DNA of 64,000 nucleotides from Pegethrix bostrychoides GSE-TBD4-15B. GTDB lineage: Bacteria > Cyanobacteriota > Cyanobacteriia > Elainellales > Elainellaceae. The stretch covers positions 1 to 64,000 of the forward strand of contig JAHHHV010000005.1 in the NCBI GenBank assembly GCA_019359155.1, in the 5' to 3' direction. Below, piece by piece: positions 10,934 through 46,383 of the stretch. Below the pieces are notes generated by a model. The model had not been told where the DNA came from. It saw only the letters and a list, made by a program, of their open reading frames with translations, and searched no databases. Made by a program: the position numbers and the translations under genes. Each line of letters opens with the position of its first letter. The first letter of the stretch is position 1.

Positions 10934-11153
10934 AAAGGTTTTCTAATCTCTGCCGCAGCGACAGGATGAGAAGGTAGTTGAAAAGCAGATGAACGGCGCG
11001 GACACAGACGGCTGATCTGGTCAGCGGCTGAATGAATTAAGTTTAAAAAAATGAGAGAATGTAAAAAAATGTTACTAAATATTATAACTCGACAAAAGCT
11101 TCTCTGGCATTCAGTAGCGGATTGTCGCGATTGTAGTAATTTGAGATCGCCGC

Positions 11154-12137
11154 TTAGCTCACAGCCTCAGTGAACTTGCCGATGCTACGAAACTTCTCAT
11201 AGCGCCAGTCTTTGAGCTGCTGTCGCGTCATGCCGGTGAGCCGATCCAGATTGGCAATCAGCGCCTGCTTCAAGGTGGTGGCGGCTTGCAGCGGATCAGA
11301 GTGCGCGCCACCAACGGGTTCTGGCAAAATCTGATCGATGATGCCCAGCCCTTTAAGATCGGGAGCGGTGATCTTCAACGCCTCTGCAGCCTGAGATGCC
11401 TTCGCCGCATCGCGCCAGAGGATGGCCGCGCAGGCTTCGGGGCTAGCCACCATATAGACCGAATGCTCAAACATCATTAGCCAGTCGCCAATCCCAATGC
11501 CTAGCGCCCCGCCTGACCCGCCCTCGCCAATCACCGTGCAGAGAACGGGGACTTCTAAGCGAAACATCTCGCGCAGATTATAGGCAATCGCTTCGCCCTG
11601 CCCCAAGCGTTCAGACTCAGCTCCCGGATCGGCTCCGGCGGTGTCAATAAAGGTAATAATCGGCATCCCAAACCGATTGGCATGTTCCATCAGCCGCATC
11701 GCCTTGCGGTAGCCGCTGGGAGAAGCCATGCCAAAATTACGCCGAATGTTGTCTTTGGTGTCGCGGCCTTTTTGGTGCCCCAAGATTACCACCGGACGAC
11801 CCGCCAGCCTTGCCAAACCGCCCACCAGCGCCAAATCATCCAGGCCGGTACAGCGGTCGCCATGCAGCTCGATCCACTCGTCGGTAATGGCTTGGATATA
11901 GTCGAGCGTGCTGGGGCGACGGGGATGACGCGCCACCAAGAGCCGCTGAGCCGGAGTGAGGCTGCTAAAAATTTCTTGCCGCAGCTGGGTGGCGCGTAGC
12001 TCTAGCTGCTGGATTTGCTCAGAGACATCTACGTCATTTTCTTCGGCCAGCTCGCGAATTTGGCTGATGCGAGCATCTAGCTCAACTAGAGGCTTCTCAA
12101 ATTCAAGCAGAATCGGCTTGCGATCAGGGTTGGTCAT
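11154..12137 (-). CDS. accA: Acetyl-CoA carboxylase carboxyltransferase subunit alpha
   Basis: 327 residues, the usual length. AccA pairs with AccD to move the carboxyl group from carboxybiotin to acetyl-CoA, the committed step of fatty acid synthesis. Recognised by the N-terminal coiled segment ([17 protein letters not shown]), [11 protein letters not shown] near 90, [11 protein letters not shown] near 121, and the oxyanion-hole region [15 protein letters not shown] near 207. The start ATG lacks a strong ribosome-binding site, as is common in cyanobacteria. Confidence 0.97.
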
Positions 12138-12246
12138 GATTTAGGGAAAAATTGCAGGAGCTGCTTAGTCGTTGCGATCAGTTGCAACAGACATAAGCTA
12201 CAGAGCATTTTACCGCACTGGCTGGGCTGCTGACTGGGTTAGCGGC

Positions 12247-30448: not shown

Positions 30449-31384
30449 ATGCGCCGATTTTCGTCACCTAGCTCCACCCGTCGGTTTCCCTGGCTCTCGG
30501 CATTCTGGAAATTTGCCCGCCCGCATACCGTGATTGGCACAAGCCTGAGCGCAGTCGGACTGATGATCATGGCGCTAGCGCACAGCCACAGCAGCATCCC
30601 ACTACTGGAGCTAGCAGGAACGCTGGCTGGCGTATTGTTGGCCTGTCTTTGCGGCAATCTTTACATCGTGGGGCTGAATCAGCTAGAAGATGTGGCGATT
30701 GACCGAGTCAACAAGCCACACCTGCCGCTGGCTTCTGGAGAATTCACGCAACGACAGGGACAAATCATTGTGGCAGTCACAGGGCTGCTAGCGCTGGGGC
30801 TGTCGGCTGGGCAGGGCTGGTTTTTGATAGCTACCGTCTGGTCGAGTCTGCTGATCGGTACGGCCTATTCGCTGCCGCCAATTCGGCTCAAGCGTTTTCC
30901 AGTCTGGGCAGCGCTCTGCATCTTTTCAGTGCGGGGCGCAATTGTCAATCTGGGGCTATTTTTGCATTTCAACCAGCGCCTGGGCAATCCACCGCAGATT
31001 CCGGCGACGGTCTGGGTTTTAACGCTGTTTGTTGTAGTTTTCACAGTTGCAATTGCCATTTTCAAAGATATTCCTGACCTAGAAGGCGATCGCCGCTATC
31101 AGATCAGCACCTTTACCGTTCAGCTAGGCGCTCAGACCGTGTTCCGACTGGCTTTGGGGCTACTGACAGTTTGCTACCTGGGAATGCTGGCGGCAATATT
31201 TTTGCCGGGGCTGAATCTGGTCTGGCTGGGCGTGAGTCATCTGCTGCTGCTGGGCTGGCTCTGGTGGCGCAGCGCTCAGGTCGATCTCGGCTCGAAGGCA
31301 GAAGTTGCCCGCTTCTATCAGCTAATCTGGAAGCTGTTTTTTCTAGAGTACCTGCTGTTTCCGCTGATCTGTTTGCTGGGCTAG
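30449..31384 (+). CDS. hpt: Homogentisate phytyltransferase
   Basis: About 311 residues from ATG 30449; an in-frame TTG 18 bp upstream is possible. A UbiA-superfamily prenyltransferase with about eight membrane helices that joins homogentisate to phytyl diphosphate, the committed step of tocopherol synthesis. FWKFARPHTVIGTSLSA at the N-terminus, the Mg-diphosphate motif NQLEDVAIDRVNKP near 82 and the second motif KDIPDLEGDRRYQI near 210 match cyanobacterial HPT. The last 42 bp overlap the convergent histidine kinase gene, within a 14-bp tandem duplication. Confidence 0.9.
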   Translation: MRRFSSPSSTRRFPWLSAFWKFARPHTVIGTSLSAVGLMIMALAHSHSSIPLLELAGTLAGVLLACLCGNLYIVGLNQLEDVAIDRVNKPHLPLASGEFTQRQGQIIVAVTGLLALGLSAGQGWFLIATVWSSLLIGTAYSLPPIRLKRFPVWAALCIFSVRGAIVNLGLFLHFNQRLGNPPQIPATVWVLTLFVVVFTVAIAIFKDIPDLEGDRRYQISTFTVQLGAQTVFRLALGLLTVCYLGMLAAIFLPGLNLVWLGVSHLLLLGWLWWRSAQVDLGSKAEVARFYQLIWKLFFLEYLLFPLICLLG

Positions 31385-32566
31385 ATTGGCTGGGCTAGAT
31401 TGGCTGGGGGCGCGCAGCAGCGGCAGACGAACTCGAACCGTTGTCCCCTGCCCCACCTGACTGACTATCTCAATCGCTCCACCGCAGATATCCAGGCATT
31501 TTTTCACGACCGCCAGCCCTAGTCCGGTGCCTTTTACCAGACCCACGTTATTGGATCGATAGAACGTTTTGAATAGATGCTGCTGACTCTCTGGCGGGAT
31601 ACCAATCCCGTGATCGATGATCTCAAAAGTCATTTCCTGTTCAGAGGATCTCACGTTAAAAATCACCTCAGCGTCAGCCCGCGAGTATTTTACAGCATTC
31701 GAGAGCAGATTCGTCAAGATGCGGTGCAGCAAGATCTGATCGGTTTCGATTTGGCTACAGCCTGTACAGCAAAACTGAATCACCTGACTGTTTCTAAGCC
31801 GAAGCGTTTCACACAGATCCTGACAGAACTGCTGGATATCGGTTGACACGGGCTGATAGAGCGTTTGACCCGCCTCAATGCTGCCAATGATGAGCACCTC
31901 ATCTAGCAGATAGAGCAGCTGCTCAATTGCCGTATCGATTTTGCCAAAATAGCGCTCGCGGATCTCTGGTGTCAGCGCTGCACCGCCATGCCGCAGCAGA
32001 TCTGCAAAGCCCTGAATGCTGGTCAGCGGCGTGCGAAAATCATGCGAAACCATCGAGACAAACTCAGACTTGAGCCGATTTAGCTCCTGCTCTTGCTCCA
32101 GTGCCCTCAGAGCTTCCGCCTTAGCCCGCTGAAGCTCAATCTGCATCCGCCGCAGTGTCAAATGATTTTCGATGCGGGCGAGCACTTCTTCCACCTGAAA
32201 CGGTTTGGTGATGTAATCAACGCCTCCCACCTGAAACGCCTGCACTTTGTCGAGCGGTTCGCCCAGCGCGCTCAAGAAAATCACTGGAATGTCGCAGGTT
32301 TGCGGATCGGCCTTGAGCTGCTGGCAGACCTCGTAGCCGTTCATTGTCGGCATGTTGATATCCAGCAAGATTAAATCTAGAGCCACGGTTCGCACCGCCA
32401 TGAGTGCCACCGAGCCACTGATCGCGCTCCGCACCTCATAGCCCTGCCTGTTGAGCATTGAGGAGAGCAGCCGCAGATTGTTGGGCGTGTCATCCACAAT
32501 CAGAATATTGCCCTTAACGCCAGCCTCGGGCAAGGCTGTGGGCAAGGTAGAGAGAGAGTTACTCAT
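31343..32566 (-). CDS. Hybrid sensor kinase: receiver-HisKA-HATPase
   Basis: 407 residues, soluble. The N-terminal receiver is intact: acidic VDD near 24-26, phospho-acceptor in LILLDINMPTMNGYEV near 70, and Lys in YITKPF near 120. A coiled linker leads to HisKA with phospho-acceptor VSHDFRTPL near 180, then a HATPase with LLSNAVKYS, DHGIGIP and GTGLGLAV. Its start overlaps the end of the 1470-aa kinase gene by 8 bp, so the two are translationally coupled and probably interact. The architecture is common in cyanobacteria; no specific signal can be named. Confidence 0.92.
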   Translation of the reverse strand: MSNSLSTLPTALPEAGVKGNILIVDDTPNNLRLLSSMLNRQGYEVRSAISGSVALMAVRTVALDLILLDINMPTMNGYEVCQQLKADPQTCDIPVIFLSALGEPLDKVQAFQVGGVDYITKPFQVEEVLARIENHLTLRRMQIELQRAKAEALRALEQEQELNRLKSEFVSMVSHDFRTPLTSIQGFADLLRHGGAALTPEIRERYFGKIDTAIEQLLYLLDEVLIIGSIEAGQTLYQPVSTDIQQFCQDLCETLRLRNSQVIQFCCTGCSQIETDQILLHRILTNLLSNAVKYSRADAEVIFNVRSSEQEMTFEIIDHGIGIPPESQQHLFKTFYRSNNVGLVKGTGLGLAVVKKCLDICGGAIEIVSQVGQGTTVRVRLPLLRAPSQSSPANLAQQTDQRKQQVL

Positions 32567-35500
32567 CGGATCTGAGAGATTGGATCTGAAAATTACAGGA
32601 CATCTGAGCAGTCAGGCCAAGAATCGCTTCAAACTGAAAATTTGAGGCGAGATCGGCCAGGGTTTTGGCAAGATCAGACTGCTCTGCCGGAATTTTCTCA
32701 ACAAGCTGGAACACCTGACGCTCACTACAACCGCTAGCGGCTTGAGCGAGTTGCTCCACCCAATCTTGCGGCATCAGATCAAGTGCAGCCCGCGCAGTCT
32801 GCAAAGCCATCTGAGGCAAAGTCTTGGCTACAGGCTGGGCTACACTGAGCGCTTCATATATGCAGTGTACTCCGAGATCTAGAGGGCGTGAGTCCGCGGA
32901 CGGCATCTGCACGAAAATTTCAAATTTAAACTGCGATCCGACTCCCATCTGGCTGCTGACCTGAAGGCGGCTACCCATTAGCTCAACGAGGCGGCGGCTA
33001 ATTCCCAGTCCCAGCCCCGTGCCTTGATTCGACTGTCGCCCCGCCTCTAACTGGACAAAGGCTTCAAACATCAGCTCGATTTCTTCAGGTGCAATGCCAT
33101 AGCCTGTATCGCTGACGGTAAACTCGATCCCCATGAGATCTGCTCGATCTGGCTCCTTCGCCCCACCTGTTGGCTCAGCATGCAGCGTGATGCTGCCCTG
33201 CTGCGTGAATTTAATGGCGTTATCGAGCAGGTTAAGCAAGATCTGGCGCAGCTTGCCTGCATCTGCAATCACATAGCGCGGCAGATCAGCTGCAATGATG
33301 AAGTTGAGGTGAAGCTGCTTCTCAGCGGCAGCCAGCCTAAACATGCCTTCAACGCGCTCCAGCAGCAGCAGCAGGTCAAACTGATCGACTTGCAAACCAG
33401 CATGATGGGTTTCTAGCCGCGCTAGCTCCAGCACGTTGTTGATTAGCTCTAGCAAATGCTGACCGCTGGAGCTGACAATCTGCAAATAGTCCCGATGCTC
33501 TGGGCTGAGCGATCCTTCTTGCCCAACAATCTGGGTAAAGCCCAAAATCGAGTTGAGCGGCGTGCGTAGCTCATGGCTCATATGGGCAAGAAACTGCGTC
33601 TTGGCACGGTTAGCCGACTCAGCTGCGTCTTTAGCCTTCTCTAAATCTGCCGACTGCTGCTGCGTTTGAGCTAGCAAATCAGCCTGCTGGATTGCCACGC
33701 CTAGCTGCGTACTAATATGTGTCACTAAGTTGATTTCACTGGGCTGCCAGTTGCGCGGGCCGCTGTTTTGATAGACTGCCAGCAGCCCCCAAAGCCGCTG
33801 CCCCTGAAAAATTGGCACAGTCAGATAGGCTTTGGCCTGGAGCTGATTCAGCAAAACGCGATAGCAGTCGGTCAATTCAGCTTGCTGTACATTGCGAACG
33901 CAGAGATACTTGGTTCCCTGGCGATAAACACCGCCCTGCGTATCTTGCAGATAGGTATCGACGAGGTGGCTAGAGCTGGCTGCGGCTGCGGCACTAGTCG
34001 GTTCTCTCCAGGTTCTGACCACACAAAGCTCATCACCTGTCGCATCTGCAAGTTCTAGCGGTGTCTCGGCTTCCAGCGACCCGTCCAGCGACCTGTCCAG
34101 CGCATCTCTTAGCACAGGCCGCCAGCAGCTTGAAACCGCTTCAGCCACGATTTCGCCGCTCCAGTCTGGATTGAAGCGATAGATCAAAACGCGGTCGCAC
34201 TTGAGCAGCTGGTGCAGCTCTTCGGCAGTCGTGCGGAAAATCTGCTCAATATCCAGCGTTTGCCGCATCCGTTCAATCACTCGCAGCAACGTCTGCTCTC
34301 GCTCGGCACTCTGACGCAGGGCATCTTCGGCCTGCTTTTGCGCTAGCACCGCGCCAAGCTGCATCGCCACGCCTGACACCAGCTGAATCAGCCGCTGCTC
34401 TTGCGGTCGGGCTTCCAACGCAAAAAACACCATCACCGCCAGCACGGTCGAGCGCTGCGTCGAATCGCGCTCGGTAGTCAGAATCGGCACGCCCAGTCGA
34501 GCCTTGATGCCGTAGTGATTGACCAGCTGAAATCGATACTGAAACTGACTGTCCTGAAACTGACTGTCCTGAAACTGACTGTCATTCAACGATTTGCCCA
34601 GAGCCGCACCTGGATCGACCGAGTTGAACGGTTCGAGTGGCTCTGGCTCTGGCCACCCCTGGTCGTCAGTTGTCCATTCTGGCTGCTGCTGACTCCAGAC
34701 TCGCCCAGCAATGCCTTGATTGGGTTGAAAGGTGACAGCTCGCGAACTCTGGCGAAATTGCTGCACTGCGGCAATCGTTGAATCTGGTATTGAGCCTGAG
34801 CCTGAGCTGCAATACCAAACCGCACTTGATTCCAGCACAGCTCCATCCGCAGCAGGTAGCCAGACCTCACCATAGACCCAGCCTGTGGTTTGGCAAAGGG
34901 CGCTGAGGGCTTCATAGAGCGCGGCATTGAAGTCGGGGGCTGCCGTGATTGCCTGCGTAATGTTGAGCAGGAGCTGTATCTCCTCTTCGGCCTGCTGCCG
35001 CTTGGCCCGCACTTGGTGACTGCTGATAAACTTACCGATGCTCTGCGCCATCAGCTCAATGATGTCAGACTCATGATGCTCATAGCCCTGCCTCCGGCCT
35101 CGCGCTGAGAAAAAACAGAGCTGGCCGTAGATTTCACCATCCACCCAGACAGGCGTTGTCAGGTAAGAAGCAACCGATCGCTCAGCGTAGACTGGCAGAG
35201 CTTGAGCTAAGCTCTGCCCATCAAAAACCGTCTGCCGGGACTGCAACAGTGTATGGCCATCTGTCCAGGAAAGCGTCCGCCCAGCCAGCAGCAGCGTCGG
35301 CTGACTCGACTCGACGGCCAACACCCGGTATTGCGTTTGGGCTGGCTCCTGATCTGCCGTCACCTGAATCACAGCCCCCGTCATAAAGCCAAGGATATCG
35401 CAGCCGGTTTTGAGATAGTCAGCGCAGATTGTCTCAATGCTGTCAAAGTCAGTCAGGCTAAGGCGATGAAGCTGCTCCAGACTCAGGCTAAATTCGCTGA

Positions 35501-36971
35501 GGGCAGCTGACTTATGGCGCAGTTCGGCTTCCGTCTGGCGGCGAGCCGTGATATCGCGCGCCACCCAGAGCACTGCATCGGTGCCAATCGGCGAAATCTT
35601 GGCGTTAAACCAAACTTCTTGGGCTTGAATGATCAGGCTATATTCCAGCTCTAGCGTCTGCTGACTGACGAGACTAGTGCGAATCGCCTCCAAAAATCGA
35701 TCGGCCTGCGCTGGCTCAAATACCTGGTGCAGCCTCTGGCCAACCAGCTCCGGGATGGGACGGTAGAGGTTTTCCTGACTGGTGGGCGCAACGCGCAGGT
35801 AGTGTCCCTGCCAGTCGAGGACTATCACCACATCGACCATGGCGGCAAACAGCCCCCGCAGCTCGGCATCTGAGGCTTTCAGTGCCGCCTCGATCTGACG
35901 GCGCTCGCAGATCTCTTGCCGCAGCACCAGATTTTGATAGCCCAGAGCTTCCAGCTGCTTTTGCTCTTGCTCCAGCGTCTTCGCCTGAGCCAACGCCAGA
36001 CCAATCTGAGCGGCAACCATCTCAAGGGAGGCCGTTTCGTCCGCTGTCCACTGCCGATGCCCGTCGCACTGCTGAAGCGTAATCACGCCATTAGCCTGGT
36101 TGCGGTAGGAAGTGCGAATCGCCAGCAGCGACTTAATCTGACTCAACTCACAGAGCTGCTGCATGGCTTCCACCCGACAGTCACCGCGCACATCAACGGC
36201 AGCTACGGCTCGATCCTGCGCCAAGACTTCGGGCAAAAATAGGCCGTCTTCCAGGACAAAGCTGATCTGGCGCATTGAGACATAGCCCGCTTCAACATAC
36301 TCTGCAATCAGCGGAATCTCCGGGATGGGGGGCGGCACGTAGATATGAATCGAGGCGCGATTCACGCGAAAAGTCTGGCCAATTTGGGCAATTGCGGCCT
36401 CCAGCGCGAGCTGGCTATCCATCTGGGAGCAAATCGCGGCGGTCACCTGCTGCAACAGCAGATTGCGCTGCGACTGTCGGGCAAGTGTCTGTTCAGCCTG
36501 TTGTCGCTGCTGCCGCTCTTGCTCTAGGGCGAACTGCTGTGCCTCCAGGGCTCTGCGTAACCGCAGCACTTGGAGCTGATATTCAATCCGACCCAGCACC
36601 AGTTCCAGATGCAATGGCTGCGGAATCCAGTCTACCGCCGCGATTTGAGCCGCGATTTGGGCGCTGATGCGGCTGCTTTCAACCGGATCATCCAGCGCAG
36701 CACCCAGCAGAATCACGGGAAGATTGGCGGTGAGCGGTGCAGCCTTGAGGCGCTGGCAGAAGCGATAACCGTCGAGATCAGGCGTTTCTAGGCTGAGTAG
36801 AATTAGATTGGGCAGGCTGACCTGAATTGACTTCAGCGCAAAACCCGCGTTCGGCGCAAATCGCACCTGACAGCCTTGCTCAGCGAGCGCAGTCGCCAAC
36901 AGCCGGAGTTTGCGAGGCGCTGCACCAACAATTAAAATGCTCTCCTTGGATCGACCTGAATGGGTTGACAT
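32559..36971 (-). CDS. Giant multi-GAF sensor kinase with degenerate receiver
   Basis: About 1470 residues from ATG 36971; a TTG 18 bp earlier is in frame. Order: receiver-like domain (about 5-125), coiled coil (135-175), GAF (180-340), PAS (375-490), GAF (500-660), GAF (680-890), phytochrome-type GAF (910-1115; CDRVLIYRFNPDWSGEIVAE), coiled coil, HisKA with MSHELRTPLNS near 1160, HATPase (DTGYGIAPEE, GTGLGLGIS), and a helical tail of about 90 residues. The first receiver has LILLSLETPDLDGY, with Ser at the phospho-Asp position, and lacks the acidic pair, so it is a pseudo-receiver. In the last GAF a Cys (DCYRVLL) sits where bilin-binding domains have CH; bilin binding is uncertain. It follows the EAL gene closely and overlaps the next kinase by 8 bp. 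No membrane helix is seen. Confidence 0.9.
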   Translation of the reverse strand: MSTHSGRSKESILIVGAAPRKLRLLATALAEQGCQVRFAPNAGFALKSIQVSLPNLILLSLETPDLDGYRFCQRLKAAPLTANLPVILLGAALDDPVESSRISAQIAAQIAAVDWIPQPLHLELVLGRIEYQLQVLRLRRALEAQQFALEQERQQRQQAEQTLARQSQRNLLLQQVTAAICSQMDSQLALEAAIAQIGQTFRVNRASIHIYVPPPIPEIPLIAEYVEAGYVSMRQISFVLEDGLFLPEVLAQDRAVAAVDVRGDCRVEAMQQLCELSQIKSLLAIRTSYRNQANGVITLQQCDGHRQWTADETASLEMVAAQIGLALAQAKTLEQEQKQLEALGYQNLVLRQEICERRQIEAALKASDAELRGLFAAMVDVVIVLDWQGHYLRVAPTSQENLYRPIPELVGQRLHQVFEPAQADRFLEAIRTSLVSQQTLELEYSLIIQAQEVWFNAKISPIGTDAVLWVARDITARRQTEAELRHKSAALSEFSLSLEQLHRLSLTDFDSIETICADYLKTGCDILGFMTGAVIQVTADQEPAQTQYRVLAVESSQPTLLLAGRTLSWTDGHTLLQSRQTVFDGQSLAQALPVYAERSVASYLTTPVWVDGEIYGQLCFFSARGRRQGYEHHESDIIELMAQSIGKFISSHQVRAKRQQAEEEIQLLLNITQAITAAPDFNAALYEALSALCQTTGWVYGEVWLPAADGAVLESSAVWYCSSGSGSIPDSTIAAVQQFRQSSRAVTFQPNQGIAGRVWSQQQPEWTTDDQGWPEPEPLEPFNSVDPGAALGKSLNDSQFQDSQFQDSQFQYRFQLVNHYGIKARLGVPILTTERDSTQRSTVLAVMVFFALEARPQEQRLIQLVSGVAMQLGAVLAQKQAEDALRQSAEREQTLLRVIERMRQTLDIEQIFRTTAEELHQLLKCDRVLIYRFNPDWSGEIVAEAVSSCWRPVLRDALDRSLDGSLEAETPLELADATGDELCVVRTWREPTSAAAAASSSHLVDTYLQDTQGGVYRQGTKYLCVRNVQQAELTDCYRVLLNQLQAKAYLTVPIFQGQRLWGLLAVYQNSGPRNWQPSEINLVTHISTQLGVAIQQADLLAQTQQQSADLEKAKDAAESANRAKTQFLAHMSHELRTPLNSILGFTQIVGQEGSLSPEHRDYLQIVSSSGQHLLELINNVLELARLETHHAGLQVDQFDLLLLLERVEGMFRLAAAEKQLHLNFIIAADLPRYVIADAGKLRQILLNLLDNAIKFTQQGSITLHAEPTGGAKEPDRADLMGIEFTVSDTGYGIAPEEIELMFEAFVQLEAGRQSNQGTGLGLGISRRLVELMGSRLQVSSQMGVGSQFKFEIFVQMPSADSRPLDLGVHCIYEALSVAQPVAKTLPQMALQTARAALDLMPQDWVEQLAQAASGCSERQVFQLVEKIPAEQSDLAKTLADLASNFQFEAILGLTAQMSCNFQIQSLRSDE
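34539..34583 (-). repeat. 15-bp tandem repeat x3 inside the giant kinase gene
   Basis: Three exact copies of CTGAAACTGACTGTC (plus strand) encode a repeated DSQFQ pentapeptide inside the third GAF domain, probably a surface loop. The frame is kept. Confidence 0.95.
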
Positions 36972-37008
36972 GATTAAGCGAGGCTGCAAGATGGCTCGCG
37001 CAGCGTGA

Positions 37009-38070
37009 TCAAAGCGGCAGGGGCAGCGGACAGATCAGCAGAGGTACGCCTTGACTGTCGAGCGGACGGGCAAACAGAAAGCCCTGTCCCCGATGACAAC
37101 CCAACGACTGAAGCTTCAACGCCTGCTCCTCGGTTTCTACACCTTCGGCAATCACGTCGATGCCCAAGCTCTGAGCCAAGTTGGCAATAGCTCGCACCAG
37201 GTATTCGCCGCGCTCGGAGGACAGCTGCTGCACAAATGATCGATCAATTTTTAGGACATCCAACGGCAGCTCCAGCAGACGGCTGAGCGAAGAGTAGCCT
37301 GTACCAAAGTCATCGATATAGAGCTGTACGCCCAGCACCTGAAGCTGACTCAGCACTAGCTCAATCACGTCAGTATTGCTCATAATCGAGCTTTCGGTAA
37401 TCTCCAGCTTCAAGCTCTGGGCAGACAGTCCGGTTTCTTGTAAGATTTGCTCAATTTGCTCTGGCAGATCGGGGCAGGCAATCTGGTGGCAGGAGAGATT
37501 GACGCTAATCGTGAGGGAGTTGAAAGCCGGAAACTTCTGCCGCCAGATTTGCAGCTGCTGGCAGGCTTCTCGAATTACCCAGGTACCAATGTCAATGATT
37601 GAGCCGGACGCTTCAGCCAGCGGAATAAACTGCGTGGGTGAAACGATTCCTAGCGTCGGGTGATGCCAGCGTGCCAGTACTTCAAAGCCGGTAACTTCGC
37701 CATTGTTGAGCGCAACAATCGGCTGATATTGCAGCCGCAGCTGACGGTGCGGCAAAGCTAGCATCAAATCGCGCTCTAGCCGCAGCCGCCCTAGCTCTTC
37801 GCTAGACAGACTCACAACGCAGTCTGACTCTTGCTCTAGTGCCGCAGTCAGCCGCATCAGCCGCTCGACGTTATTGGCGGCAATCTTGACCATTCGCTGT
37901 CCCTGATCAGAGAGTGATCCGAGCTTACCACTCCCCAACAGATCCAGCGCCCCCTGAATCACCGTCAGCGGCGTTCGCAGCTCATGGCTGATATCTAAAG
38001 AAGTCTCATCTGGCGAAACAGCATAGTGAGAGCTAGAACTTGTGGAACAGTGAAACTTACGGGTTGTCAT
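37009..38070 (-). CDS. HisKA phospho-acceptor helix fused to EAL phosphodiesterase, no ATPase domain
   Basis: 353 residues. Residues 20-85 are a HisKA-like helical hairpin with a complete H-box (ISHELRTP, His29). It is closely similar in pattern (GKLGSLSDQG, KIAANNVERLMRLT) to the HisKA of the neighbouring PAS kinase. There is no HATPase; instead an EAL domain spans about 100-345. Catalytic motifs look intact: FEVLARW at 129-135 (EVL for EAL), SVNLS, LEITESS, YIDDFGTGYSS, LKIDRSF, AEGVETEEQ and GQGFLFARPL. It should hydrolyse c-di-GMP to pGpG. It may take phosphate from a kinase in trans or dimerise with one. A gap of about 37 bp leads to the giant kinase gene on the same strand. Confidence 0.88.
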   Translation of the reverse strand: MTTRKFHCSTSSSSHYAVSPDETSLDISHELRTPLTVIQGALDLLGSGKLGSLSDQGQRMVKIAANNVERLMRLTAALEQESDCVVSLSSEELGRLRLERDLMLALPHRQLRLQYQPIVALNNGEVTGFEVLARWHHPTLGIVSPTQFIPLAEASGSIIDIGTWVIREACQQLQIWRQKFPAFNSLTISVNLSCHQIACPDLPEQIEQILQETGLSAQSLKLEITESSIMSNTDVIELVLSQLQVLGVQLYIDDFGTGYSSLSRLLELPLDVLKIDRSFVQQLSSERGEYLVRAIANLAQSLGIDVIAEGVETEEQALKLQSLGCHRGQGFLFARPLDSQGVPLLICPLPLPL

Positions 38071-38559
38071 AAATATGCTGCTCTAGCGCTGCTTCAGGTC
38101 ACCTGCAACTAGGCTAATCGAACCAGAAGCTTCAGTCCAGATCAATCTGCATCCGGCTCGTCAGATTCGACCCAAATCTGGATCAGTCAGGATTTAGAAT
38201 CGGTTTACTGGCAAGTTAGCTCAGGAAGTTGGTTCAGAAGGTTGGTTCAGAAGATCAGTCTGGCTGTAGGCTGGTCTGACTAAAACTGTCTGGCCAAATC
38301 CATCTGGCCTCTGGCTATAGGCTCGCTTGACCGCTGCTCAATAACCAGCTTGAGACAAGGCGGTATTGGGGGCTGTGCCTGTATCAAGTCTATATAAGGT
38401 CAAGCTTGGTAAGGTCAAGCTTGAGAGTTCGAGAATTAGCGTCGAGATTTCAACCTCATCCATATAGATATTAAGGGTCCAATGGTGAAAAAGTCGGGAA
38501 GGCAAGTCATTAACAGCCGGCGACCTGTCTTTGCAAGCTGAGCAGCAGTTGGCCGCCAA
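38071..38559. other. 489-bp spacer with several short tandem repeats
   Basis: It lies between the receiver gene and the EAL gene. It contains GTTGGTTCAGAAG twice in tandem (about 38223-38251) and AAGGTCAAGCTTG twice (about 38396-38425), plus many gcttga and gtctgg words. A 73-codon open frame (38338-38559, minus) exists, but it has no family resemblance and is built partly from these repeats. It probably holds the EAL-kinase promoter. Confidence 0.4.
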
Positions 38560-38940
38560 TTAAGCGTTCCAGCCCAGGACGCTGAGCAGCTGGTCGGCCA
38601 AGCGGGCAGGCTTAAAAGGCTTGGCGATCATGGCTTTCACGCCAAGTTCGGCAAAGCGGCGCTGGTCAGAGATTTGCACTTTTGCAGTCAGCAAAATTAC
38701 GGGGATATGCTGCGTGGCTGGATTGGCCTGTAAATGCTGAAAAACAGTCAGCCCGTCCATATCAGGCAGCATGACATCTAGCAAAATGGCATCAGGCTGC
38801 TCAGTTTCTGCCTTTTCTAATCCTTCTTGACTGGAGCAAGCCACGATCACATCTAGCCCAGCCATAATCTCTAGGCTAGCCTGAGCGACTTCGCGAATAT
38901 CATCTTCATCGTCGATCACTAAAATACATCTACCGGGCAC
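38560..38940 (-). CDS. Single-domain response regulator
   Basis: 126 residues, one complete receiver: VIDDEDD near 7-13, phospho-acceptor in AILLDVMLPDMDG near 53, Thr in LLTAK near 83, and Lys in IAKPFKP near 105. The start is GTG at 38940, supported by GGAGG 7 bp upstream. It has no output domain, so it acts as a CheY-like phosphate shuttle or docking protein. The PAS kinase lies 95 bp upstream on the same strand. Confidence 0.92.
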   Translation of the reverse strand: MPGRCILVIDDEDDIREVAQASLEIMAGLDVIVACSSQEGLEKAETEQPDAILLDVMLPDMDGLTVFQHLQANPATQHIPVILLTAKVQISDQRRFAELGVKAMIAKPFKPARLADQLLSVLGWNA

Positions 38941-39035
38941 TCAACACCTCCACAAGCTCATTGGCTTCAGTCTTCCCCATCCATATCTCCATCCCTCCAT
39001 GTCTCTGTAGCTCCGTTTCTCTATATTCCAATTCT

Positions 39036-40646
39036 CTATACCTCCACCGCAACGCGCTGCATCGGTAGCGCCAGATAGAAGGTGCTGCCCTGCCCCAAAA
39101 CGCTCTCAGCCCAGAGCCGCCCCTGATGATACTGCACAATGCTGCGGCAGATCGTTAGCCCCAGCCCAGCCCCGCCTTGCCGCCTGCTGTCAGAGGCATC
39201 GACCTGCTGAAACTGCCCAAAAATTGTTTCTAGCTTGTCTGCTGGAATGCCTAGCCCCTGGTCTTTGACACTGATTATCAGATGAGGAATCGGCGGCAAA
39301 TCGCGGCAGCGAGCCTGCTCTGGAGATTGAACTTCAGCCGTCAGCCAGATGCTGCCACCGGGCTGAGAAGACTGGACTGCGTTCAAAATCAAATGATTTA
39401 GCACCTGAATCGTGCGCTGAGGATCCACGAAAATTTCTGTAGGCTGATGTGTTGGCTGGAGATTGGGCTGGAGGGCGCCTTGAGACAAAGGCGTAACCAG
39501 CAGGCGCACCCCATGCCGATCGGCCATCGGTGAGTTTTGTTCAGCAGCAAGACTCAATAGATGTTCGACATCGCAGGGCTGCTTTTGAATCACGATGTTG
39601 CCGATGCTTAGCCCTTCTAGATCCAAGATATTGCCCGTGAGCTGAACCAGCCTGTCGATATTGTTAGCGGCAATTTCCAGCATTCGTAGCCCCTGCCCAG
39701 ACAGCTCGCCAAGCTTACCCGTAAGCAGCAGCTCGATTGAGCCTTGCAGGGAGGCAAGTGGCGTTCGCAGCTCATGATTAATAATCGAGATGAATTCGTC
39801 TTTCATCCGCTGCACCATTTGCCGCTCGCTAATATCGCGTGCGATCATCGCCAGCCCCTCAATTGCGCCATCTGCATCTTTTACTAGAGAAACTGTCAGC
39901 GAAACTTCGATGAGTTCGCCTGTTTTGCGCCGCTGCACCACTTGTTGGCAATCAATCTGCTGACAGCCAATCTGCTGACAGCCAATCGCCTGCCGAGATG
40001 CAGCGGCGGCCTGGCTTTGAGGCTCGGCAGGATGGGCTGCACCAAAATCGAGCTGAACGGGGCGAGCTGAGCTGACGTGAGGGTAGATTAAGCTGGCCAG
40101 CGGCTGACCGATCACTTCAGCAGCGCTATAGCCATAGAGCTGCTCTGCCCCCGGATTCCAGGTGAGTACCGCTCCCTGCAAATCGGTGCTGACAATCGCA
40201 TCTTCCGACGACTCGACAATTGCCGCCAGCCGAGAGAGAGCCGCCTCAGCCGCTCGCTTAGCTCGCCGACTCTCAGCATCTTTTAGCTCGCGCGCAATGG
40301 CCGGAACCAGTCGCTTGATCTGCCCCTTGAATAAGTAGTCGTTTGCTCCAGCTCGCATCATCTCAACGGCAACATCTTCACCCATCATGCCTGAAAGCAC
40401 AATAAAGGGAATGTCAAGCTGGGCGGCCTGCAAGATTTTCAGCGCGTCGGGAGCGCTAAATGCGGGCATTAAATAGTCGCAGATCAGCAGATCCCAGGAC
40501 TGGCGCTGCAGGGCCAGCTGCATTGTAGCTGCGCCATCCACCCGCTGATAGTCGGGAGCGTAGCCGCCGTTGCGGAGCGCCTGCAAAATAATCTGCATGT
40601 CTGCTTCAGAATCTTCAACAAATAAGACTCGCAAAGGAGTGTTCAT
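39036..40646 (-). CDS. Hybrid sensor kinase: receiver-PAS-HisKA-HATPase
   Basis: About 536 residues from ATG 40646; a TTG 9 bp upstream is in frame. Receiver (about 8-125; FVEDSEAD, LLICDYLMP phospho-Asp, YLFKGQ lysine), PAS (about 140-275; SSEDAIVSTDLQGAVLTWN), HisKA with INHELRTPLASL near 292, and HATPase (about 390-530; LNHLILNAVQ, DQGLGIP, GAGLGLTI). A repeat-derived insertion CQQIGCQQIDCQQ lies inside the PAS domain. Its HisKA is the closest in-window relative of the helical part of the EAL protein. It is divergent from hetR with a 371-bp shared region, and the single-domain receiver follows it. Confidence 0.9.
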   Translation of the reverse strand: MNTPLRVLFVEDSEADMQIILQALRNGGYAPDYQRVDGAATMQLALQRQSWDLLICDYLMPAFSAPDALKILQAAQLDIPFIVLSGMMGEDVAVEMMRAGANDYLFKGQIKRLVPAIARELKDAESRRAKRAAEAALSRLAAIVESSEDAIVSTDLQGAVLTWNPGAEQLYGYSAAEVIGQPLASLIYPHVSSARPVQLDFGAAHPAEPQSQAAAASRQAIGCQQIGCQQIDCQQVVQRRKTGELIEVSLTVSLVKDADGAIEGLAMIARDISERQMVQRMKDEFISIINHELRTPLASLQGSIELLLTGKLGELSGQGLRMLEIAANNIDRLVQLTGNILDLEGLSIGNIVIQKQPCDVEHLLSLAAEQNSPMADRHGVRLLVTPLSQGALQPNLQPTHQPTEIFVDPQRTIQVLNHLILNAVQSSQPGGSIWLTAEVQSPEQARCRDLPPIPHLIISVKDQGLGIPADKLETIFGQFQQVDASDSRRQGGAGLGLTICRSIVQYHQGRLWAESVLGQGSTFYLALPMQRVAVEV

Positions 40647-42085
<1,439 letters not shown>

Positions 42086-42162
42086 TTCATACCCAAATCA
42101 GCACCGCATCAATATCGAAATTCTTACCGAGTCAGAGCTTCAATATCTGGCCGAAATCTAGC

Positions 42163-44079
42163 CTACATTTGACGGCTCGACAGCTGGATCGGTTTCAAGG
42201 GTGCTGGTGAACTGCGGCGTAGCCGATTTAGGATGCGGATCGAGAATTCTGCGGGTTGGACAGGTTTGAGCAGCAGATCATCTGCACCCGCTGCAAAAAT
42301 TTGCTGTTCGGTTTGCGGATCGCATTGAGCTGTCAAAAATACAATCGGCAGCCAGTTCCACTGAAGGTCACAGCGCACAGTCTGGCATAGCTCAATGCCG
42401 TTAATCTCAGGCATGTTGACATCAAGGATAAGCAAATCAGGATTAACTTGGTTGAGGACATCCCAGAGCCGAACCGAGTCTGTTAGCTCGCTCAGATGAA
42501 TTGAGTCATCCAGCCAGACTGCTAGAAGTTGAGCAATCAGCGGATCATCGTCAACAACTAGGACTCTAAATGCAGCTTTAGGGGCTGGATACCGCAGATT
42601 TAACGCCGACTCTAGCGCCGACTGGAGCAAAGCTTGTGAAGCTGACCTGGGCAGAAACAGCTGCCCACCCGCCTGCAGGGCATTGACTCGGGTGCGCGCA
42701 GTGGTCTGCTCAGACAGAAACACGATGGGCACAGAGGGATCTGCCTGCAACAACTCTAGTAGCTCTATTGCCCGTTGATCTGACTCTAGACAGGCATAGT
42801 CGATGAAGGCAATCTGAGGTCGCAGCAGCTGGCATTGCGCGATGGCGCTCTCAACTGTGGTGACGGTGATCAGATGCAACGCCTGCTCAGCCATCTGAGC
42901 CGCAATAGCTGAAACGCAGGTTTGGTCTTGAGCCAAGAGCAGCAGCGGTTCAGCCTCAGGGTGAGCAGCCAAGCTGCGAGAAATTCGCTCAGCTCTATCG
43001 CCTGTTGCAGCCCTACTACCTTGCTGAAGCAATGCCTGTAACGACTGCACCCACTGTTCAAACTGGGCGAGCTGAGTCGAGTCGGGCAAGCGATCTGAAC
43101 TAGTCGGGATAGAAAGCTGGTGCAGCGCAGTTTCCAGCCGCTGAGCGATTTTTGAACCAGACTCAAAGCCAAACGTACCGAGCGAGCCAACCAGCTTGTG
43201 AGCAGACTGTATGGCAGCTTGATGTAGACCTGGACTCAGCGCTGCCGCTTTCAGCGCCTCTAAAGCCTGTTCTAATAGAGTGACTCGCTCCAGATTAACG
43301 CTTTTGGTGCGCTGCCAAATCATAGACATAGAGCGGCTAAGATCGGCCTGCCGCGCTGAATTCGAGCCGAAATCAGGGCGTTGCGCTAGTTTGGATTCTG
43401 CCAGGTAAGCTGGATTAATCCGATAGCCCTGCCCATAGAGCGTTTCGATCAAATGACCAGCCCCAACCGCATCCAGCTTGCGACGAATGCTTTTGATGTG
43501 AGACTTAACGGTATCTTCATTCGGCGGATCTTCGTTAAACGACCAGATTTGATCAACAATTGCGCTGCGGCTAAACACCCGATGCTGATGGCGCAAAAAC
43601 AGCTCCAGCAGCAAATATTCTTTGCGGCTAAAGCGCAGCAGCTGAGTTCCATAGGTAATCTCGCAGGCCACTGGATTGAGGCAAAGGTCACCGCAGCGCA
43701 GCACAGTCTCTGTGATCGGATTACCGCGACGCAGCAGTGCATGGATGCGGGCAGCTAGCTCTTGAATGTCAAACGGCTTGACAAGATAGTCATCTGCGCC
43801 TGACTGCAAGCCTAGCAGCTTGTCGCTAATCGCATCTTGAGCGGTTAGCAGCATAATCAAAGACTGTTTTTTGTGATCTCGCAATCTCCGGCAGAGGTTA
43901 ATCCCGTCCAGTTTCGGCAGCACAATGTCGAGCAAAACCAGATCATAGGGGAATGATTCGGCCATCTCCCAGCCCATCTCGCCATCTGTAGCCGTATCCA
44001 CAATGTAATTCTGCTGCGCTAAAGCTGTAGTCACAAGGTCAAGAATGCTTTCATCATCTTCCACCAGCAGAATTCTCAT
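42163..44079 (-). CDS. Multidomain response regulator: receiver, OmpR DNA-binding, HPt, pseudo-receiver, receiver
   Basis: 638 residues. Receiver 1 (about 1-118; VEDDES, VLLDIVLPKLDG, YLVKPF); OmpR/PhoB winged helix (about 130-226; SRKEYLLLELFLRH, VKSHIKSIRRKL, GQGYRI); HPt (about 260-350) with phospho-His in SAHKLVGSLGTFG; a second receiver-like domain (about 365-485) that keeps an Asp (AFIDY) but lacks the acidic pair and the Lys; and receiver 3 (about 495-620; VVDDDP, LILDVNMPEING, LLLKPV). It can bind DNA and take phosphate at Asp and His sites, so it is a natural end or hub of a relay with the three kinases nearby. It is convergent with hetR, 77 bp away. Confidence 0.92.
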   Translation of the reverse strand: MRILLVEDDESILDLVTTALAQQNYIVDTATDGEMGWEMAESFPYDLVLLDIVLPKLDGINLCRRLRDHKKQSLIMLLTAQDAISDKLLGLQSGADDYLVKPFDIQELAARIHALLRRGNPITETVLRCGDLCLNPVACEITYGTQLLRFSRKEYLLLELFLRHQHRVFSRSAIVDQIWSFNEDPPNEDTVKSHIKSIRRKLDAVGAGHLIETLYGQGYRINPAYLAESKLAQRPDFGSNSARQADLSRSMSMIWQRTKSVNLERVTLLEQALEALKAAALSPGLHQAAIQSAHKLVGSLGTFGFESGSKIAQRLETALHQLSIPTSSDRLPDSTQLAQFEQWVQSLQALLQQGSRAATGDRAERISRSLAAHPEAEPLLLLAQDQTCVSAIAAQMAEQALHLITVTTVESAIAQCQLLRPQIAFIDYACLESDQRAIELLELLQADPSVPIVFLSEQTTARTRVNALQAGGQLFLPRSASQALLQSALESALNLRYPAPKAAFRVLVVDDDPLIAQLLAVWLDDSIHLSELTDSVRLWDVLNQVNPDLLILDVNMPEINGIELCQTVRCDLQWNWLPIVFLTAQCDPQTEQQIFAAGADDLLLKPVQPAEFSIRILNRLRRSSPAPLKPIQLSSRQM

Positions 44080-44805
44080 ATCGGTTCTTATCTTTGTTCT
44101 GATTTCAGGTTAAATCTTATATTTCTGATCAATATCTTAACTAATGGCAACTCCAGAGCGAGCCTAGAGCTAGGCTGAGCGCTGCTGATCAGGCTCAAAC
44201 CGGCTGTTCTGGGAGTCTCAGTGGGCTGTATTTGACAGCTAAGTAATTTCCACTTTTTTGCCAAACCGTTTAGAAATTCATTTAGAAATCCATGCTGAGA
44301 CTGCCAATTTTTTTTACCGCCTGAGTCTTAATCCTGAGCCTCGCTCCCACCCTTTAACCCAAACGCTAGGCCACTGAGATAGTTACAGTAGCTTGGGATA
44401 GTTACAACAACTTTAATTTTCCACAGATTTTCCACTTTTTAACTATATATTCTTTAGCTAGACTGTTGATTAAGACGCATGTTGGTGAAGCTAGATTGGC
44501 GGCGGCTGATTAAAGCGGCTGAATGAGCCGACCGAACGAGACGATTTAGGAAAAGATGTCAGCGGAGATTACTCCCTTAAAGTTGATTACCGGCTCCCTG
44601 CTAGAAGATGCGGCTGTAGCGCCGCTGGGTTGAGTTTTATCTTGTGAGGCTTGAGCCTAATTGATTTGCAACGGCTAGGCAAATCTGGGCTCGCAGTTGC
44701 GACCTTAGACAGTGTTCGGGGAGCAATAGAATCATCACAATCAACAGCAAGGTCAGAGTAAGGTCAGAGCAAGGCCAAAAGAGAGCCACAGTAAGGGTAG
44801 AAACC
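44080..44805. other. 726-bp intergenic region with GTTACA repeats and a small frame
   Basis: Upstream of the multidomain regulator and of the 112-aa gene. GATAGTTACA occurs twice as a direct repeat (44378-44387 and 44397-44406), resembling half-sites for OmpR-type regulators. An A+T-rich ACTATATATTCTTT lies at about 44442. A 25-codon frame with its own AGGA site starts at 44556. AAGGTCAGAG-type 12-bp repeats precede the next gene. No larger gene or RNA is recognised. Confidence 0.4.
44556..44633 (+). CDS. Possible 25-residue small protein
   Basis: The frame begins MSAEITPLKL and ends in EDAAVAPLG before TGA. AGGA sits at a good distance (about 5 bp) before the ATG, which is better than for most genes in this window. 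There is no homology that I can name and chance is not excluded. Confidence 0.25.
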   Translation: MSAEITPLKLITGSLLEDAAVAPLG

Positions 44806-45144
44806 ATGGAAACGCTGTTAATTAACGAGCAATTTGTCTCTCAGTTCAAGTACTGGCAAGCAGGGCAGATTCGCACGGGCATGAGATTTCGCAATAACCT
44901 CTTTGAACATGTTGCTCAGTTTAAGGCCAACCAGCGACCTCAAGCTTTTGAGCTAGCCTGGAAACTTACCCAGGCGGGTCAAGAGGCAATCGTGACGGCT
45001 TCTACAGCCCAATATACAGTTTGGGTCAGTCTGCGCTCTAAAGAGTTAATCTTACCCATTCGCGAACAGCCACAGATTGCACCGTTTGAGCAGGTTACTC
45101 CAGACAATCAGCAGCATCAGCTGAAAATTGCGCTCTCAGCCTAG
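44806..45144 (+). CDS. Hypothetical protein, 112 residues
   Basis: A soluble protein with no signal or membrane segment and no motif I recognise. It starts METLLINEQFVSQFKYW and contains an amphipathic helix-rich first half and a beta-like second half (TAQYTVWVSLRSKELILPI). The ATG follows AGGGTAGAAACC. It stands alone, followed 100 bp later by the redoxin/oxygenase gene on the same strand. Confidence 0.55.
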   Translation: METLLINEQFVSQFKYWQAGQIRTGMRFRNNLFEHVAQFKANQRPQAFELAWKLTQAGQEAIVTASTAQYTVWVSLRSKELILPIREQPQIAPFEQVTPDNQQHQLKIALSA

Positions 45145-45252
45145 CGCGGTCGGCAGCCTGAGTTGTCCCTAAGTTGTCTCTGGGTTGATCGCTGAGTTGA
45201 CAGCCTGCAATCAATCAGAAATACTGGGTTTGCTGTGCATTCTGCATTGACT

Positions 45253-46383
45253 ATGCCTGCGCTAACCGTCGGCGATCCGGCTCCCTGGTTTGTCTCTGCC
45301 TCATCTATTGCAGCAGGTCAAGATTTCGTGATGGGCGGCTATCGGGCGGTGCTCTGCTTTTTAGGCAGCGCAGGTCAGCCGCAAACTCAGGCGGTTCTGC
45401 AAAATTTTTACAGTGCTAGAGCGCAGTTTGTGGCATGGGACATTCACTTTTTTGCGATCAGCATTGATCCCAACGACCGTGGCCTAGAGCAATCGCTTCA
45501 GCCTTGCAGCCACTTTCATCTACTCTGGGACTTCTCAGGAGAAATCAGCATTCGCTACGAGCTGTGTCAAATGGGGCAGTCGAGCGGCATCTCCTATGAC
45601 CCAACCACTTTTGTCCTAGACGAAAATCTACGGATCTTAAATCTATTTGCGCTAGAGACACAGGTCTCGCACGCTCAGCAGGTGCTGCAATATCTGCAAA
45701 CAATACCCGCAGCCCAAGCAACTCAGAGAATTAGCCAGCAGGCTCCAGTTCTGCTGATCCCAAACGTGCTTTCTGCTCAGCTTTGTCAGCAGCTGATCGC
45801 AAGCTACCGTCAGACGGGCGGCGCTGAGTCGGGCATCATGCAGCAACAAGGCGACAAAACAGTGGTCGTACTTCAGCCGACCGTGAAGCGACGGCGAGAC
45901 TGGCTGATTACTGAGCCAGACTTGCTCAACGCGATCAATTTGGCGCTGAGTCGGCGCGTGGTTCCGGAAATTGCCAAAGTATTTCAGTCTCGCGTCACCT
46001 GCTTTGAGCGCTATGTCGTGGCCTGCTACGAAGCTGCCAACCAAGGCTTTTTCCGACCTCATCGGGACAATACTGCCCAAGGCAACCAGCACCGTCGCTT
46101 TGCCCTGACATTAAACCTTAACAACAGCTACAAGGGCGGAGCGCTGCGGTTCCCAGAATACAGCAATCACCTGTACTGCCCTGAGCCGGGAGGAGCAGCA
46201 ATATTTTCCTGCTCGCTGCTCCATGAAGCCACGCCCGTCACGGTAGGCGAACGCTTTGTGCTGCTGTCTTTTCTGTATGGTGACGAAGACGCAAAGCTGC
46301 GTCAGCAGACTCAGGATCAGATTATCCGCACGGGCGTAGCTCAAAACCTGCCCGCCAGCGGTAGAATTGCAGCCAAGCTCTAG
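45253..46383 (+). CDS. Redoxin-like domain fused to 2-oxoglutarate/Fe(II) prolyl-hydroxylase-like domain
   Basis: About 376 residues from ATG 45253; a GTG 18 bp earlier is in frame. Residues 1-150 have a peroxiredoxin/AhpC-like thioredoxin fold (VGDPAPWFV, YRAVLCFLGSAGQ, FVLDENLRI), but the peroxidatic TxxC is absent; the Cys near YRAVLCFL is in the strand. Residues 165-360 are a 2OG-Fe(II) dioxygenase: HRDN (H-x-D iron ligands) near 279, HEATPV (distal His) near 330 and Arg in GERFVLLSF for 2-oxoglutarate. A protein or peptide hydroxylase is the general expectation; the substrate is unknown. Confidence 0.82.
   Translation: MPALTVGDPAPWFVSASSIAAGQDFVMGGYRAVLCFLGSAGQPQTQAVLQNFYSARAQFVAWDIHFFAISIDPNDRGLEQSLQPCSHFHLLWDFSGEISIRYELCQMGQSSGISYDPTTFVLDENLRILNLFALETQVSHAQQVLQYLQTIPAAQATQRISQQAPVLLIPNVLSAQLCQQLIASYRQTGGAESGIMQQQGDKTVVVLQPTVKRRRDWLITEPDLLNAINLALSRRVVPEIAKVFQSRVTCFERYVVACYEAANQGFFRPHRDNTAQGNQHRRFALTLNLNNSYKGGALRFPEYSNHLYCPEPGGAAIFSCSLLHEATPVTVGERFVLLSFLYGDEDAKLRQQTQDQIIRTGVAQNLPASGRIAAKL

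Follow-up and report, generated by a model that had tools for sequence, protein, structure and literature searches.

What puts a hetR gene among the genes of a phosphorelay, and what switches it on there? The question is raised by a stretch of 64,000 nucleotides (the window, meaning the whole piece of DNA analysed) from contig JAHHHV010000005.1 of Pegethrix bostrychoides GSE-TBD4-15B, in which a hetR-family gene (41018..42085, plus strand) stands between sensor kinase genes and the gene of an OmpR-type regulator (42163..44079, minus strand). The gene proves to be a second, divergent copy of hetR, here termed hetR2; its linkage to a patX-like frame is lost, it forms a clade with its counterparts in relatives, a promoter box with regular spacing precedes it and several relay genes, and the surrounding genes are conserved. 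These features are best explained by an older relay locus that acquired a duplicated hetR and whose OmpR-type regulator would now drive hetR2, a reading that appears fairly likely from the sequences, and hetR2 is probably switched on by a signalling relay.

The window's own genome, G000, is cyanobacterial and 5.72 Mb in size. The relatives compared were G010 (placed in the same genus), G012, G023, G019 and G018; class-wide searches covered 388 genomes, and an order-wide search for HetR covered 36. HetR2 is complete in G000, G010, G012, G023 and G019, and is cut by a contig end in G018. The papers cited below are represented by extracts of their text.

HetR2, a divergent second copy of HetR

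The HetR2 of the window has 355 amino acids (its open reading frame, or ORF, is open from a TTG at 40976) and is assigned by Pfam, by its place in a tree and by signature residues. The initial annotation had called the gene hetR. Family membership holds, with matches to Peptidase_S48 (247.3 bits) and HetR_C (103.9 bits) against cut-offs of 27 for both, but the gene is not an ordinary hetR: the paralogue is divergent, carries an N-terminal extension of about 62 residues and, at 484.3 bits, falls short of the 489-bit cut-off of the NCBIfam HetR equivalog PRK13245. The genome has two HetR_C matches. An ordinary HetR of 299 amino acids is encoded on another contig (G000:C88:49098-49970), downstream of a patX-like frame with RGSGR, which rules out the window's gene as the main hetR of this genome.

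A HetR match is present in all 36 genomes of the order. A frame with RG(S/T)GR lies within 900 bp upstream of 33 of the 36 main hetR copies, by a hand tally in which some stretches end at contig ends, and upstream of none of the five complete HetR2 copies. HetR2 lacks the combination that marks a HetR-PatX pair, namely an adjacent upstream RG(S/T)GR frame and the full set of PatS6-binding residues, D256N being present in all five. Extracts of the literature report patX-hetR as a module of filamentous clades (PMC12756182) and, in Leptolyngbya BL0902, three hetR-like ORFs of which one is downstream of patX (PMC11298460).

In a 67-row tree, from which G014_b was left out for its very long branch, the five HetR2s form one group (100/99), with the bootstrap unsettled and G019 on a long branch. 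At position 256 all five have Asn, where the 63 other HetRs have Asp (60), Asn (2) or Glu (1). Q57E, M63L and H66Q are likewise found in all five, the other 63 having Gln in 62, Met in 58 and His in 58. Of these clade-specific changes, D256N lies in the PatS-binding site and the others close to the DNA-binding helices. The residues named as HetR DNA contacts in the extract of PMC4649674 (R62, H69, E71, K73, R74 and K76) are retained in all five HetR2s, as are R223, E253, E254 and D270 of the PatS site; D278 is retained in three of five. According to the same extract, Asp256 contacts the PatS hexapeptide, and D256A in Anabaena HetR moves the dissociation constant from 12 to 427 nM (PMC4649674). 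Given D256N and this reported loss of affinity, we infer that HetR2 would respond differently to PatS-type peptides.

Set against the HetR of Anabaena and Fischerella with PatS/PatX (PDB 3qod, 4hri, 4ynl), HetR2 thus has in common the Pfam families, both over cut-off, the DNA contacts and R223, E253, E254 and D270. It differs in its N-terminal extension, in D256N, Q57E, M63L and H66Q, in having no adjacent patX-like frame, in its different predicted promoter and in being a second copy in its genome.

HetR paralogues other than HetR2 also exist. G025 carries two that lie close together (L055 7347-8216, minus strand, and 11149-12138, plus strand), both with Asn at 256 and 278 and both separate from HetR2 in the tree. 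G014 encodes a very divergent HetR-like protein (L053 8801-9646), about 55% identical to HetR2.

A promoter box at hetR2 and the relay genes

Alignment of the regions upstream of hetR2 brought out a conserved CCCGACTTTTCCACCTTT, part of a box that consists of an 11-bp direct repeat, GTGGAAAAnTT, placed 6-7 nt upstream of a -10 element. The predicted hetR2 promoter (40906..40935, plus strand) comprises the operator CCCGACTTTTCCACCTTT at 40906-40923, six further nucleotides and the -10 element TATGAT at 40930-40935. On the minus strand of the same intergenic region is the predicted promoter of the divergent kinase gene (40822..40851; operator 40834-40851, -10 TACAGT at +6). That of the gene for a DHp-EAL protein (38468..38498, minus strand) has its operator at 38481-38498, in the same place in G010, G012 and G023, and a -10 TAATAT at +7. 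The predicted promoter of the 44806 gene (44422..44451, plus strand) has GTGGAAAA repeated at 11 bp and a -10 TATATT at +6, and scores only 11.4 bits by the matrix described below. In direction each box matches its gene, those at 40906, 40834, 38481 and 44422 pointing to hetR2, the kinase, DHp-EAL and 44806, respectively.

Direct repeats of 11 bp that replace the -35 element at a fixed distance from the -10 are the layout of promoters activated by PhoB/OmpR-type regulators. The box of the window shares the 11-bp repeats at the -35 place and the fixed -10 spacing; it differs in its repeat sequence, GTGGAAAAnTT, and in having a binding protein that is only predicted. The regulator encoded at 42163 is the best candidate, being an OmpR-type protein that travels with the box.

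Nine sites from the regions between hetR2 and the kinase gene served to make a matrix for the box, with the -10 outside it. The box with a -10 at +6 precedes hetR2 in all five complete cases, and in six of six when the truncated G018 copy is included. None of 44 regions upstream of other hetRs has a box of at least 12 bits with a -10 at +6 (four of the five hetR2 sites being training sites), so that ordinary hetRs are ruled out as sharers of the box; one of them reaches 17.1 bits without a -10 at +6. DHp-EAL is preceded by sites of at least 20 bits, in matching positions, in G000, G010, G012 and G023, and in these four genomes sites of 11.4 to 24.6 bits lie between the 42163 and 44806 genes. 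Weaker boxes (12-13 bits, with a -10 at +6) also precede DHp-EAL and the 44806 homologue in G041, a genome of another family.

On the gene strand TANNNT stands at +6 in 13 of 18 sites of at least 20 bits (training sites included), other offsets having one or none; of the weaker sites (16-20 bits), 4 of 15 show it. Ten of the 24 non-training sites of at least 16 bits have the -10 at +6, all of them among the 16 in relay loci, as against none of the 8 in controls. The match to GTGnAAAA averages 4.82 of 7 at +11 and is at most 3.25 at other offsets (4 to 14; n=28), a peak that is partly built in, since the matrix spans the first three bases of the second repeat unit. HetR2 loci (152,772 bases) hold 16 joint sites (a box of at least 10 bits with a -10 at +6), of which 9 lie outside the training set; hetR-free relay stretches (405,416 bases) hold 12 and controls (401,355 bases) none. 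The control set includes the relay-type L195 (from G000, with paralogues of regulator, kinase and receiver) and L086 (a G023 flank), neither with a joint site, as well as L191-L194, which were fetched for their box cores. In a class-wide exact search with a shorter pattern, 8 of the 10 matches in family f1 fell at this cluster (hand tally). The coupling suggested by the initial annotation is supported by these boxes, and position is no longer the sole link: a shared operator and promoter arrangement is added to it.

Control of hetR2 through exact NtcA (GTAN8TAC), HetR (GGGN5CCC) or DIF1 (TCCGGA) sites is ruled out for the window, G012 and G019, whose hetR2-kinase intergenic regions have none. 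The scan covered these three and G023, where there is one GGGN5CCC match.

Conservation of the block and age of the relay

The arrangement, for which the initial annotation had proposed a comparison of neighbourhoods, is conserved in relatives. Comparison of 45 window ORFs with DNA from G010 (55 kb), G012 (46 kb), G023 (60 kb) and G019 (40 kb) showed a block of nine genes, 31343 through 46383, as the sole collinear piece common to the window and G010, G012 and G023; the flanks of this block are unrelated or rearranged among them. Of the other 36 ORFs only 55161 was matched (29% identical, in G023), besides paralogous copies of relay proteins there. HetR2 stands beside a kinase-receiver pair in all six HetR2 genomes, one with a broken kinase gene and one with a truncated hetR2.

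In the class, hetR is found in 194 of 388 genomes (E<=1e-50) and the family of the 42163 regulator in 179 (E<=1e-90). Among 19 same-contig pairs picked by eye from the matches listed, a hetR lies within 2 kb of a 42163-type regulator in G000, G010, G012 and G023 only, and no other pair is closer than 59 kb. The relay genes are also found without hetR. A 44806 homologue, a 42163-like regulator, a kinase, a receiver and DHp-EAL are together in G041, where a search for hetR at E<=1e-50 came up empty, and sets of regulator, kinase and receiver occur in further families. Because of these hetR-free loci, HetR2 was probably a later recruit to an older relay locus. The same loci rule out hetR as the gene that defines the cluster, and the view that the cluster is built around it is not upheld.

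The relay proteins

All components named by the initial annotation (three HisKA kinases, a HisKA-EAL protein, a free receiver, a hetR-family gene and an HPt regulator) are recovered by Pfam at their places. The kinase gene that diverges from hetR2 (39036..40655, minus strand; TTG start at 40655, first ATG at 40646) encodes a REC-PAS-HisKA-HATPase protein. It is followed by the free receiver (38560..38940, minus strand), 85-90% identical in G010, G012 and G023, and by DHp-EAL (37009..38070, minus strand). Beyond these, also on the minus strand, are a GAF/PAS histidine kinase with HisKA, HATPase and a degenerate N-terminal REC (32559..36989) and a REC-HisKA-HATPase kinase (31343..32566). On the other side of hetR2, the 42163 regulator has the order REC, winged helix-turn-helix, HPt, degenerate REC and REC. 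The 44806 gene (44806..45144, plus strand) encodes a 112-residue protein that matched no Pfam family and that accompanies relay genes in other families as well. The last gene of the block (45235..46383, plus strand) encodes a protein of the 2OG-Fe(II) oxygenase type whose AhpC-TSA match is marginal (25.6 of 26 bits).

By Pfam together with alignment by eye, the acidic pocket, Asp and Lys are retained in the receivers of 38560, 39036 and 31343 and in the first and third receivers of the 42163 regulator; in its second receiver Arg replaces Lys, and the receiver of 32559 is degenerate. The HPt domain of the regulator is detected by Pfam, and a motif of the AHKLVGS type is seen in it by eye, which we take to hold the phosphorylated His. 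Every step of a His-Asp-His-Asp relay was said to be present, and the domain set is indeed complete, from kinase His through receiver Asp and HPt His to a terminal receiver Asp, with conserved pockets.

A DHp domain joined to EAL

DHp-EAL is a HisKA hairpin region fused to EAL. Pfam finds these two domains only, and not the HATPase that a histidine kinase would have. The phospho-His box SHELRTPLT and the EAL catalytic motifs, checked against the known catalytic residues of EAL domains, are retained in the window and in 10 of 10 aligned orthologues; orthologues occur in 11 of 388 genomes of the class (E<=1e-100). Within G000 this DHp most resembles the one in the neighbouring kinase (58%, 60.8 bits; the runner-up reaches 48.5). 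Sister loci encode DHp-GGDEF-EAL proteins, in L129 (9939-11603), in L133 (10018-11700) and, apparently split into two ORFs, in L131 (4574-6297), and in these three the phospho-acceptor His of DHp is Tyr. The two kinds offer a natural comparison of phosphate-capable and phosphate-incapable DHp domains.

A DHp without HATPase is also the mark of the stand-alone HisKA phosphotransfer proteins of cyanobacteria, which are counted in the extract of PMC9953108; here, however, DHp is fused to EAL or, in the sister-locus proteins with Tyr for His, to GGDEF-EAL. The closest cyanobacterial c-di-GMP relay found, as far as the extract of its description goes, is CdgK-CdgS of Anabaena (PMC9927289), in which kinase, receiver and HPt likewise feed a c-di-GMP enzyme in a filamentous cyanobacterium. 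CdgK combines a kinase, receivers and an HPt in a single polypeptide that targets a receiver protein with GGDEF, whereas the HPt of the window lies within an OmpR-type regulator and the enzyme is DHp-EAL, so that the locus is not of the CdgK-CdgS type. An effect of c-di-GMP on heterocyst development in Anabaena is described in the extract of PMC8682488. Among the open-licence papers listed, as far as their titles and abstract openings show, none deals with hetR within a relay or with a HisKA-EAL protein.

A proposed history and its alternatives

The preferred account is as follows. In an ancestor of three genera of one family, a phosphorelay locus already composed of the OmpR-HPt regulator, sensor kinases, free receiver and DHp-EAL would have acquired a duplicated hetR, which came to sit in the divergent promoter region behind one copy of the box, the same type of box preceding the kinase-receiver, DHp-EAL and 44806 units. 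Phosphate from the kinases would pass to receivers and HPt and on to the first receiver of the 42163 regulator; the phosphorylated regulator would bind the 11-bp direct repeats next to the -10 and activate the locus and hetR2. In parallel, DHp-EAL and its receiver would adjust c-di-GMP. HetR2 would act on DNA with altered specificity and a reduced response to RGSGR peptides. More specifically, HetR2 may be a peptide-desensitised HetR that was rewired from patX to the phosphorelay, with the OmpR-HPt regulator switching on hetR2 and a c-di-GMP phosphodiesterase together, a proposal that is put forward tentatively and falls short of being probable. If it is true, a regulator of the differentiation type has a sensor relay as its input, and not an intercellular peptide. 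A hetR paralogue with a predicted regulator, an exact predicted promoter and candidate co-regulated genes, a c-di-GMP enzyme among them, makes one input of HetR testable.

Several observations weigh against this account. The neighbourhood is not constant: G019 keeps hetR2, kinase, receiver and DHp-EAL and has no adjacent 42163 gene, only homologues elsewhere, and G018, which retains hetR2, kinase and receiver, lacks DHp-EAL at the locus. In G010 the frame of the divergent kinase gene (L042 12170-13400) is broken and a remnant is left, while the genes of receiver, DHp-EAL, HetR2 and regulator are open, which means that the relay chain in this form is not obligatory. The window's 42163 gene itself lacks a box; together with the G019 locus, this makes another OmpR-type binder possible. 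The Tyr of the sister loci suggests that DHp may serve as a docking surface in some lineages, and not as a phosphate carrier. The box without a -10 at +6 occurs in controls as well (8 of the 24 non-training sites of at least 16 bits, three of the eight coming from stretches fetched because they hold a box core), and the joint site is present in only 7 of 22 hetR-free relay stretches (19 places). A class-wide search with the pattern listed 61 matches, spread over 50 of 388 genomes, where the control gave about 30 (hand tally). Within G000, CTTTTNCACNTTT-N6-TANNNT occurs twice if at most one mismatch is allowed, both times in the cluster (at hetR2 and 44806), and the reversed control pattern three times, so that only the location of these matches is telling. 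As for the clade, the bootstrap of the 67-row tree is not settled, and an earlier 48-row tree grouped four HetR2s (98/92) and left that of G019 unplaced.

HetR2 might instead be the regulator and not the output, binding the shared intergenic region and controlling the relay genes, with the box as a HetR-type operator. HetR is a DNA-binding protein, HetR2 keeps the DNA contacts, the intergenic region is common to hetR2 and the kinase, and the G023 counterpart has its one GGGN5CCC. This is nevertheless unlikely: the box has the form of 11-bp direct repeats at the -35 place, unlike the GGGN5CCC consensus reported for HetR in the extract of PMC4649674, that consensus is absent from the intergenic regions of the window, G012 and G019, and the weaker boxes of G041 stand in a genome without a hetR match. 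It is also quite improbable that the paralogue merely hitch-hikes at the locus, there by chance and with no functional link to the relay. The occurrence of relay genes without hetR elsewhere, and the missing parts in G019 and G018, would fit such a history, but HetR2 adjoins the kinase-receiver pair in six of six genomes, the flanks of the block are rearranged, and the box with its -10 precedes hetR2 in each of the six. A coupling at the protein level, with a relay component acting directly on HetR2 through the N-terminal extension, might be suggested by the M-x-hydrophobic-S/N/G-K-L/F motif at the start of the extension in the five complete HetR2s (in G010, where the ORF is longer, it begins at an internal Met). 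The rest of the extension is variable in length and sequence, and Pfam detects no receiver or HPt-like domain in the window's HetR2, which makes this alternative very improbable.

Other box sites and minor observations

Of the 61 class-wide matches, 18 are one identical TTTTCCACTTTTTATTATTATTGT site, carried by 18 genomes of a single genus (g44, family f24). G000 has two more exact box cores, on C67 and C73, neither with a -10 at +6. They lie near 4355 of L191 and near 3994 of L192; downstream of one is a 465-residue ORF without a Pfam match, and the other is flanked by genes for an ARC6-like division protein and a dehydrogenase E1. The genome also encodes nifD (G000:C82:75084-76493, with a score over the family cut-off), and given this gene the organism is probably a nitrogen fixer.

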